Source: Candidatus Zixiibacteriota bacterium
GTDB taxonomy: Bacteria; Zixibacteria; MSB-5A5; GN15; PGXB01
DNA: 37,457 bases
NCBI GenBank assembly: GCA_020058225.1
Contig: JAGVEJ010000074.1
Location: 1 to 37,457, forward strand
Direction: 5' to 3'
Shown: positions 29,210 to 34,350 of the stretch, one piece after another
How positions within the stretch are numbered: the stretch's first letter is position 1
Layout of the letters: the number at the start of each line of letters is the position of its first letter
Program-made: the position numbers and the translations under genes
The notes under the pieces: generated by a model
What the model was told of the DNA's origin: nothing
Databases searched by the model: none
What the model saw: the letters and a program-made list of their open reading frames with translations, nothing else

Positions 29210-29354
29210 ATTGGGTGATTTTTGGTTAGAGGCCAGCCAGGCGGTAGGCTGTCAAATCGGCAGACGAGAATAAAATTACAGGTGGAACTTTCTGTCGGTA
29301 ACGATTGTTGTGATTATCATAGACTAATATAGTCCAAGTAAAAGGAGTTTGTTA

Positions 29355-29732
29355 ATGAAATTATCCAGTATCAATTTTTTTGCATTTTTATTATTTGTCC
29401 TGACATTATTGGTATTTGCCTCATGTTCCAACAATGATTCCGTTACAAATCCAAATCCTCCCGGCAATAATGGCGGGATCGACAGCACCATTGACATAAC
29501 GGGTTTCAAGTATTCTCCGACCCCTGACACAGTGAAAGTTGGAACGACTGTTGCATGGACTAATATGGATTCAGCTCCGCATACAGTCACAAGTGATGAT
29601 GGCAAATTCACATCATCCGGGAATATGTCACAGGGGAATAAATATTCATATAAATTCACTGTCGCCGACGCCTATTCATATCACTGCGCTTACCATTCAA
29701 GCATGAAAGCTTCCATAATTGTAATCCCTTAA
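29355..29732 (+). CDS. Cupredoxin (plastocyanin-like) lipoprotein
   Basis: A 125-residue exported blue-copper type protein. A lipoprotein signal ends in VFASC (Cys24), then a Pro/Asn/Gly-rich linker of about 20 residues, then a single cupredoxin domain. The type 1 copper ligands appear complete: His76 (SAPHTVTS), Cys111, His114 and Met117 in HCAYHSSM. It probably carries electrons at the membrane surface. The start is ATG 29355 with AGGAG 8 nt upstream; an in-frame TTG at 29349 is less likely. A palindromic repeat is inserted exactly at its TAA stop. Confidence 0.9.
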   Translation: MKLSSINFFAFLLFVLTLLVFASCSNNDSVTNPNPPGNNGGIDSTIDITGFKYSPTPDTVKVGTTVAWTNMDSAPHTVTSDDGKFTSSGNMSQGNKYSYKFTVADAYSYHCAYHSSMKASIIVIP

Positions 29733-29886
29733 GGGAGTGTTGAAAAACCCTGATGTGTCGTGTCCGCGCATGGTCCCGCATTGCGGGAGCCGCATCTGTC
29801 AGAGTCACGCAATAGCTTAGGGGCGGATGTGGATTCGCCTGCGGCGAACCACCCACACTTTGGGTTTTTTCAACAGGCCCCTAAGG
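29730..29886 (-). repeat. Palindromic mobile repeat, copy A
   Basis: A non-coding element of about 147 bp (29735-29881) flanked by a perfect 5-bp direct duplication TAAGG (29730-29734 and 29882-29886). The ends are imperfect inverted repeats, consensus about GGCCTGTTGAAAAAACCC. Inside are a hairpin ttcgcctgcggcgaa and a second palindrome tcccgcattgcggga. It is the inverse of copy B at 32709-32857; aligned in the same direction the two are alike over most of their length, including ggttcgccgcaggcgaa and gcccctaagctattgcgt. It carries no gene. The left TAAGG contains the cupredoxin stop codon TAA. Confidence 0.85.
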
Positions 29887-32409: not shown

Positions 32410-32643
32410 TATCTGGGGCTATTTTTTATCCAGTGTTCCACTTTTTATAAGCATATTAAAAAATCCTATTAACAGGAAGAAGTATATTTATGGGTAATTA
32501 TGCTGGCCGCACGTCCCAATAATTTGAGCAAATTTAATTATCTAAATTCAAAATTCATGGTTTTGGGGTCGGCAATGATTATATTTATGAAGTATTGATA
32601 TATTATTGAAACGATTCAGAAATCGAGTCTGGAGAAGCCATAA

Positions 32644-34350
32644 TTGTCCGGCAAATTAATTTTAATCCTCCTATTTGGTTTCATTTTTGTGGCGGATGGG
32701 GCCTTAGCCCAGGGGACTGTCGAAAAAGCCCTCGAATGTGGGCGGTTCGCCGCAGGCGAATCCACATCTGCCCCTAAGCTATTGCGTAACACTGGCAGAT
32801 GTGGACATCTGCCATGCATGGACACGGTACACCCGGCTTTTTCAACACGCCCCCAGGATGGGAATACCATTGATTCCATAGTAATTGACAATAACAATAT
32901 TTATAATACTGATTCTTCAGCCTATAATTATTGGCCATTTAGGCTGATCAATAAATTGCATCTTAAAACCAGGCGATTTGTTATTGAGAGGGAGATATTA
33001 TTGAAAAGGGGAGAAGAATTTTCCCCGGAGCGGGCCGCCGAGTCCGAGAGAAATCTCCGTTCACTCCCATATATTTGGGCGGCTTCGGTCGATTTCCGCC
33101 GAAACCGCAGTAATCAGGGAATTCTCTATGTTACAACATCCGACCGTTGGACCCTTCTTGGCGGAGTATCAATTAATAGATCCGGCGGTCGAAACATATA
33201 CGAATTTCGCATCGAGGAATCAAATTTTCTTGGGCGGGGACAGTATGTCTCATTCAATTATTTTAGCAGAAATCAAGAAGAAGATTACTACCAATTTGCG
33301 GCTGTAGAGAGGCGAGTTTTTGGTAGCCGCAATATGCTGAGTTTTTATGTCAATAGCGATCCCGAAATCGGCCAGGAAAATATTGGTCTTAGTAGGCCAT
33401 TTTATTCATTTGATTCAAAATTAAGCTATTTAATAAATCATGCCAAAATAAATAGATATGATTATTATTATAAAGATGGGATTTTGATGGCCCAAAATAA
33501 GGCTTATGGTGAAATATACGAGCTGGAATCGGTGTATCGGTGGGGCGGCTATGCAAGCAAGGCTTTTGCTGGGGTAGAATATCAATTTAGAAAGCTCGAC
33601 TTTTTTTCGGAACAAGGCGATGGATTTGTATTCCCGACTGATAGCAGTTATTATGGAATTAACCTAAAATTCGGCTTGGTAAATGAGAAGTATATTAAAG
33701 CCACGCATCTGAATTCGTTTCAAAGGATTGAAGATGTTTTGATTCAAACCGGCGGAGTCTTAACGCATGGCTGGTATAGCGATCATAATTCAAGAAAATT
33801 ATATGATCTTCTTTCATTTGTTTTCAATTATTCAAACAGCGTCGGTTCAAATTTATTTTTTGCCACATTTGGTCGAAAGTATTGGTATGATGGGAACATT
33901 GACTTCAGAAAACAGTTAATACTTTCGATAAAATATTATAACAATGCTTATGTATGGATGACTCAGGCATTTTATGCCGTTTATCAAGAGGACTGGCGAA
34001 GAGACAACAATGAGTTGCTTTATCTTGGAGAGAGCTTTGGAATTCGCGGCTATCCTAAGAATTATCTCAATGGCGGGAAAATACTTCGGTCAAACTGGGA
34101 AACGAGATTTTTTCCGGGCATTAGAATTATGGGAGTTGATATTGGAATGGCGCAATTTATTGATATTGGTCAAATTGCCGCTCAAAATAGAGATATTGCA
34201 GATGGCAGATTCCTATGGTCAGCCGGATGTGGTTTGCGGATTGGAACCGAAAGGATTGCCAGTAAGGATATATTGAGGATTGATTTAGCATATGCGGGGA
34301 GACTGAAAAAATGGGAAATTTCCATCGGTTCCGGGCAATTTATAAGATAA
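32644..34350 (+). CDS. POTRA-barrel outer-membrane protein with repeat inserted near the N-terminus
   Basis: A 568-residue outer-membrane protein. A signal peptide ends at ALA-Q (residues 20-23). Residues 24-71 come from a mobile palindromic repeat and have an odd, Cys-rich composition (ECGRFAAGES, NTGRCGHLPCM). A POTRA-like region follows (about 95-165, RRFVIEREILLKRGEEFSPERA) and then a beta-barrel of the BamA/TamA or surface-antigen kind (NFLGRGQYVSFNYFSRN, and GESFGIRGYPKN for a conserved barrel segment). Without the insert the protein would be 520 residues. The start is TTG with GGAG about 10 nt upstream. It might insert or transport other outer-membrane proteins; the substrate is unknown. 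Confidence 0.8.
   Translation: MSGKLILILLFGFIFVADGALAQGTVEKALECGRFAAGESTSAPKLLRNTGRCGHLPCMDTVHPAFSTRPQDGNTIDSIVIDNNNIYNTDSSAYNYWPFRLINKLHLKTRRFVIEREILLKRGEEFSPERAAESERNLRSLPYIWAASVDFRRNRSNQGILYVTTSDRWTLLGGVSINRSGGRNIYEFRIEESNFLGRGQYVSFNYFSRNQEEDYYQFAAVERRVFGSRNMLSFYVNSDPEIGQENIGLSRPFYSFDSKLSYLINHAKINRYDYYYKDGILMAQNKAYGEIYELESVYRWGGYASKAFAGVEYQFRKLDFFSEQGDGFVFPTDSSYYGINLKFGLVNEKYIKATHLNSFQRIEDVLIQTGGVLTHGWYSDHNSRKLYDLLSFVFNYSNSVGSNLFFATFGRKYWYDGNIDFRKQLILSIKYYNNAYVWMTQAFYAVYQEDWRRDNNELLYLGESFGIRGYPKNYLNGGKILRSNWETRFFPGIRIMGVDIGMAQFIDIGQIAAQNRDIADGRFLWSAGCGLRIGTERIASKDILRIDLAYAGRLKKWEISIGSGQFIR
32709..32857 (+). repeat. Palindromic mobile repeat, copy B (in frame inside a gene)
   Basis: An element of about 139 bp (32714-32852) bounded by a perfect 5-bp direct duplication CCAGG (32709-32713 and 32853-32857). 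The ends are ggactgtcgaaaaagcc and ggctttttcaacacgcccc, imperfect inverted repeats of each other. It holds the ttcgccgcaggcgaa hairpin and a central palindrome gcagatgtggacatctgc. The duplication interval is 144 nt, exactly 48 codons, and the chosen frame is stop-free. Deleting it joins ALAQ directly to DGNTIDS. Confidence 0.9.

Follow-up and report, generated by a model that had tools for sequence, protein, structure and literature searches.

A putative IS1182-type MITE carried in frame by an outer-membrane protein gene in a Zixibacteria genome

Mobile repeats that insert in frame into working genes are known best from Rickettsia, in which it is less clear how they transpose. Nearly half or more of the copies of the Rickettsia palindromic elements (RPE) lie in genes, and these elements encode a conserved peptide (reviewed in PMC10969869). 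Miniature elements (MITEs) of the IS1182 family include MITEPye1 of Paracoccus yeei, which is present in 1–3 copies per chromosome and is mainly intergenic (PMC11578231), and the ISMac2 MITEs of Methanosarcina acetivorans, which are 160 and 169 bp in length, with a 4-bp direct repeat tabulated for one of them (PMC3852290). QMITE1 and QMITE2 of Coxiella burnetii have direct repeats of 2–3 nt and 7–11 nt, respectively, and overlap known genes mostly at gene ends (PMC5896051). Both IS1182 MITEs (PMC11578231, PMC3852290) and in-frame MITE fusions (PMC10969869, PMC5896051) have been described before, the Rickettsia elements being the most extreme of the fusions. The combination of an IS1182 MITE with in-frame gene fusion looks new, as does uvrB as a host gene, and a limited literature search found no papers on such elements in Zixibacteria.

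The gene considered here lies in the window (the whole 37,457-nucleotide stretch that was analysed), which belongs to a single fragmented metagenome-assembled genome (MAG) without close strain relatives. The gene starts with TTG, and a GGAGAAG Shine-Dalgarno-like site is found at 32631–32637. Its product comprises a signal peptide with a presumed cleavage site, one POTRA domain and a C-terminal beta barrel, as judged from the sequence and from an AlphaFold model (pLDDT 83.4, built from 16 sequences). The POTRA domain and barrel of that model, together with its best PDB matches (BamA and TamA, E about 1e-12 to 1e-10), place the protein in the BamA/Omp85 superfamily; the NCBIfam profiles TIGR03303 (OM_YaeT/BamA, E=9e-13) and Omp85 family (E=4e-07) also matched it, both under their curated cut-offs.

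A preliminary description of the window had reported a repeat with inverted ends at positions 32709–32857 of this gene, bounded by a perfect 5-bp duplication (CCAGG). The repeat is present as described and its flanks are as read, but the duplication itself is best taken as 4 bp, CCAG: one copy precedes the GGG end of the element and the other follows its CCC end, while the fifth base, G, is part of the element at the left junction and of the flanking DNA at the right one (Table 1). Element and duplication then amount to 140 + 4 = 144 nt, and hence to 48 codons. The remaining particulars agreed with the sequence: the 144-nt interval has an open frame throughout, its removal joins ...ALAQ to DGNTIDS..., and exactly 48 residues are added behind the signal peptide, ahead of the POTRA domain. 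The element and the right CCAG would be translated as GTVEKALECGRFAAGESTSAPKLLRNTGRCGHLPCMDTVHPAFSTRPQ; with 3 Cys in 48 residues, this insert is not strongly Cys-rich, as it had been called. The element folds better than all of 200 shuffled sequences on either strand (z -3.9 and -6.3), and its length and lack of a transposase gene are those of a MITE (under ~500 bp, without a transposase gene). Rfam gave no match at the element.

Table 1. Positions in the window of the outer-membrane protein gene, of the mobile element within it and of a second copy of the element
Feature	Position	Strand	Basis or remark
Host gene, 568-aa BamA/Omp85-superfamily outer-membrane protein	32644..34350	+	ORF; profile matches; AlphaFold model
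Signal peptide MSGKLILILLFGFIFVADGALAQ, codons 1-23; its end coincides with the left junction	32644..32712	+	sequence
Rest of host gene, QDGNTIDS onward, collinear with orthologues	32853..34350	+	alignment
Mobile element, putative 140-bp IS1182-type MITE ('type A')	32713..32852	+	self-similarity in own genome; missing from orthologues
Left 4-bp target duplication CCAG	32709..32712		sequence; register fixed by 41 copies
Right 4-bp target duplication CCAG	32853..32856		sequence; register fixed by 41 copies
Left terminal inverted repeat GGGACTGTCGAAAAAGCC	32713..32730	+	also at ends of intact IS1182-family elements
Right terminal inverted repeat (GGGCGTGTTGAAAAAGCC on minus strand)	32835..32852	-	also at ends of intact IS1182-family elements
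Inner hairpin 1, TTCGCCGCAGGCGAA	32746..32760	+	slot with unrelated self-complementary sequences in other copies
Inner hairpin 2, TGGCAGATGTGGACATCTGCCA	32793..32814	+	second swapped-hairpin slot
Second window copy of the same MITE	29733..29880	-	at TAA stop codon of cupredoxin-like gene (29349-29732)

Orthologues of the gene were found in 56 of 60 related genomes, those with names among the closest being from Zixibacteria MAGs, except for one labelled Ignavibacterium. The preliminary description had predicted that the nearest homologues would lack residues 24–71, and this was borne out: in an alignment with 12 same-family orthologues (38–45% identity) those residues are unique to the window protein, and further relatives across the order likewise lack them. 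The full-length element was absent from 147 related genomes, where only fragments of its core were found, and its exact core pattern was not recovered in a contig-database search that possibly did not include the window's own genome.

Within that genome the element is multicopy. A blastn search, proposed in the preliminary description as a check, returned 64 matching pieces, and the end motif TGTTGAAAAANCCC has 55 exact occurrences, versus 0 for a reversed control pattern. Copies were collected locus by locus, and their number is a minimum; 41 non-redundant copies with both ends were gathered. These form three classes with little in common beyond their ends: type A (about 140–153 bp when complete), type B (mostly about 109–136 bp) and type C (about 225–300 bp), a few assignments being rough because the classes were set by simple motif rules. 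Most copies lie outside recognisable genes.

With the element read as GGG...CCC, 13 of the 41 copies are flanked at this fixed register by an exact 4-bp repeat (shuffled mean 1.0, maximum 6 in 2000 shuffles), and the flanks of 21 match at three or more of the four positions (4.7 in shuffles), so that a 4-bp duplication is the rule. The preliminary description had staked its reading on a duplication being present at other copies as well, where it does recur. We attribute its absence in exact form from the other 28 copies to decay, recombination or other events. A duplication of 5 bp or 9 bp was rejected as the rule in favour of 4 bp; longer direct repeats at some copies, such as one of 10 bp (CCAGAGGATG) at L117 (contig C71) and one of 9 bp (TCACTATGG) at L002 (contig C2), are exceptions. 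At the second copy in the window, the left target copy TTAA still provides the TAA stop of the cupredoxin-like gene, and the right copy, CTAA, matches it at 3 of 4 positions.

The element shares its ends (GGGNNTGTTGAAAAA) with full-length IS1182-family insertion sequences of related genomes and with a transposase fragment in the window's own genome. This fragment, of 122 codons, is located at the end of contig C136 directly behind the same terminal repeat (GGGGAGTGTTGAAAAAGCCC), and matches the last 51 positions of the IS1182 model (E=1.6e-12, under the full-length cut-off). Related transposases from further genomes of the order and class include full-length ones of ~450 codons, in elements of ~1.4 kb that have GGGCTTGTTGAAAAA-type repeats at both ends. 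On the strength of these shared ends we regard the element as an IS1182-type MITE, and the co-occurrence of ends points to an IS1182-family transposase as the probable enzyme acting on GGGNNTGTTGAAAAA. In the fragmented 248-contig assembly no complete autonomous insertion sequence with these ends was found, only the 122-codon fragment, which leads us to infer mobilisation in trans. Such MITEs are not confined to the window's genome, since a ~150-bp element with the same ends occupies about 640–792 of locus L181 in another genome of the class; its site reads CACAG-CTTG-CTGTG, the loop CTTG being present at either side.

Compared with MITEPye1 and the ISMac2 MITEs, the element is alike in size, stem-loop fold, direct repeats and possession of terminal repeats common to IS1182-family insertion sequences; it differs in sequence and phylum, in having three copies in frame inside genes and, relative to MITEPye1, in its much higher copy number. 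Two other sources of mobility were considered and rejected. The ends of an IS1182-like transposase element on contig C224 differ (GAGGCTGTGTCATAAT), and Y1 (RAYT-type) transposases are present, but none of the element's motifs are found in their neighbourhoods, which speaks against REP/RAYT mobilisation. The second IS1182-like element, with ends GAGGCTGTGTCATAAT, occurs at L018, L023 and L068 (contigs C63, C53 and C224), where its left end is in some cases fused to a type-A core, suggesting chimeric repeats.

Palindromic targets are known for some IS1182-family members. One of them, IS1272, targets palindromes and replaces the stem-loop without duplicating it, and its authors also drew a hypothetical pathway (c), in which only the loop is duplicated (PMC5678879). 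Nine IS1182-family elements in relatives of the window's genome lie within palindromes, with 4–7 of 8 flanking positions complementary (~2 expected); for some of them the 4-bp loop is exact on both sides, as at L176, within CACAG-CAAG-CTGTG and with CAAG on both sides. Transposase family and palindromic targets are thus shared with IS1272, whereas the copies studied here retain the stem and have a second copy of the 4-bp loop, which is the pattern of pathway (c). Loop duplication at these full-length copies provides comparative support for a pathway that had been drawn only as a possibility. In the window's genome the complementarity of the flanks is also raised (136 versus 105 expected, reached by 1 of 2000 shuffles). 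The sites within genes are poor hairpins (3/8 complementary positions for the outer-membrane protein gene, 3/8 for uvrB and 4/8 for a glycosyltransferase gene), so hairpin preference fails to explain those three sites.

For every copy, open reading frames were sought across the site both with and without the element. Copies were found in three recognised genes, in frame in each case: the Omp85 gene, uvrB and a GT4-type glycosyltransferase gene. In the DNA-repair gene uvrB (contig C46, L024/L256), which is single-copy (the only UvrB match in the genome), a shortened type-A copy of 98 bp has TCAA on both sides and is inserted on the same strand and in the same frame as in the Omp85 gene. It contributes 34 residues (GSIEKTPMCGRFAAGESSSAPKLTGHPVFSTAPQ) near the N-terminus, before the conserved UvrB start, and the UvrB proteins of relatives lack them. 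Homology to solved UvrB structures begins just past the insert, at about residue 60, and the 714-residue protein is intact to its C-terminus. The sequence offers no in-frame ATG, GTG or TTG from the end of the element to the point where UvrB conservation begins, which requires initiation inside the element or ahead of it; one possible alternative start is an ATG that lies in the element. In the glycosyltransferase gene (contig C194, L149/L172/L241), the region between the two glycosyltransferase domains is longer by 38 residues owing to a type-B copy, which has the same ends. Relatives lack this insert, and alignments with those of the same family split there (about 1–170, then about 210–390). 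This insert is flanked by a 12-bp direct repeat (CCCTTCAGGTGA) instead of 4 bp. Other open reading frames across empty sites (up to 202 residues) were taken as chance occurrences; the four largest were scanned and had no Pfam match.

We consider it highly probable (roughly 90%) that the segment in the outer-membrane protein gene is a non-autonomous IS1182-type MITE that was moved in trans and inserted with a 4-bp duplication, leaving the gene read through with 48 added residues. An IS1182-family DDE transposase would recognise the GGGNNTGTTGAAAAA ends, move the MITE in trans and duplicate 4 bp of its target; full-length elements mostly target the loop of a small hairpin, and it is this loop that is duplicated. 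This copy would have landed just behind the signal peptide of the BamA/Omp85-like gene and, because element and duplication together are 144 nt with one open frame, the gene would read through and gain 48 residues. Selection presumably removes copies that break useful genes, and those that would survive are open, in frame and located in linkers or at the edges of domains. The movement in trans, the translation of the insert, its tolerance and the filtering by selection are all steps that we infer.

In the AlphaFold model, pLDDT is about 25–36 over the insert and about 90 over the POTRA domain and barrel, and the insert is predicted to form a flexible, disordered periplasmic linker ahead of the POTRA domain. 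The same model, which places the insert outside the folded part, bears on an alternative that we judge improbable, namely that the insertion inactivated the gene, with the outer-membrane protein lost and the frame open by chance or recency. From length and stop codons, the mean chance of an open frame is 13% per type-A or type-B insertion, so some random insertions would stay open; however, over its other 497 codons the gene is intact, is collinear with the orthologues and keeps the invariant motifs, and the same arrangement is found in the highly conserved uvrB. This copy also diverges by 9.3% from the family consensus, which speaks against a very recent arrival, although part of that divergence predates insertion. 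Against the 13% expectation, all three recognised genic copies have an open frame, which fits selective removal of disruptive insertions, disrupted genes being less sensitively detected.

The openness of the frame could also mean that the repeat was domesticated as coding sequence and kept for a useful peptide (G-x-V-E-K ... CGRFAAGES.SAPKL ... FST), a possibility also raised for the Rickettsia elements. The type-A insertions in the outer-membrane protein gene and in uvrB, which are independent of each other, share strand and frame, and among the 12 full-length type-A copies with both ends, 10 keep that frame open. A simulation of neutral change, set to the observed divergence, already leaves this frame open in 63–74% of cases, so that 10 of 12 is not exceptional, and comparison of the open frames with that simulation detected no selection on the element-encoded peptide. 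The choice of frames is moreover limited by a TGA in the third frame of the terminal repeat on each strand. With only two recognisable intragenic type-A copies, and an insert that is predicted to be disordered, we find retention for a peptide hard to credit.

Still less probable is an assembly artefact, in which reads from different repeat copies were joined to leave a chimeric junction in the gene. The genome is a MAG of 248 contigs with many copies, and several contigs end in these repeats, but here both flanks are parts of one gene that is collinear with its orthologues, with matching 4-bp duplications, and the flanks in uvrB and the GT4 gene are collinear too. A lineage-specific N-terminal extension that only resembles the repeat, suggested by the variable length of the region between signal peptide and POTRA domain among orthologues, is refuted by the 84–92% nucleotide similarity of the segment, over most or all of its length, to the best-matching copies elsewhere in the genome; the segment also has terminal repeats and a target duplication.

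The preliminary description had likened the repeat to the Rickettsia palindromic elements, and the resemblance holds in kind, with two further in-frame genic copies, but does not extend to membership. Like RPE, this is a hairpin repeat of ~150 bp found in frame in unrelated protein genes that stay open. Unlike them, it is recognised in frame within genes in only 3 cases, for at least 41 copies with both ends, its peptide shows no evident conservation, selection on that peptide was not detected, a likely transposase family has been identified and the organism is another one. Since most copies lie outside recognisable genes and mobility appears to be of the IS1182 type, we describe the element as RPE-like, not as an RPE. 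The QMITE1 and QMITE2 elements and intragenic ERIC elements are comparable as MITEs that overlap, or are in frame in, open reading frames; the direct-repeat lengths of the QMITEs differ from that found here.

Insertion of the IS1182-type MITE in frame means that mobile DNA has most likely added new protein stretches in this organism. A wider proposal, to which we give somewhat less than an even chance, is that protein remodelling akin to that by RPE has arisen independently in a candidate phylum: read-through of IS1182-type MITE ends (G-x-V-E-K) would repeatedly seed disordered segments into an Omp85 protein, the nucleotide-excision repair protein UvrB and a glycosyltransferase linker, and purifying selection would leave the in-frame, open copies at domain edges. 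Here a single genome makes it possible to name a likely transposase family, its ends, the duplicated target and three proteins affected, including that of the single-copy uvrB, and so offers a usable case for asking whether mobile repeats make tolerated or useful protein segments.

The interior of the type-A element is itself variable. In type-A copies (L007, L008, L015, L020, L026 and others) two inner slots hold unrelated self-complementary sequences (TTCGCC..GGCGAA, TCCCGACA..TGTCGGGA, GCAGATG..CATCTGC) with constant sequence on either side, which looks like an exchange of entire hairpins. An inner module, TGTGGGCGG-hairpin-TCCACATCTGCCCC, is also found in other genomes of the order (L072-L074, L076, L079-L080, L083-L087), there without IS1182-type ends, and may therefore have existed earlier as a palindromic repeat in its own right before the MITE acquired it.
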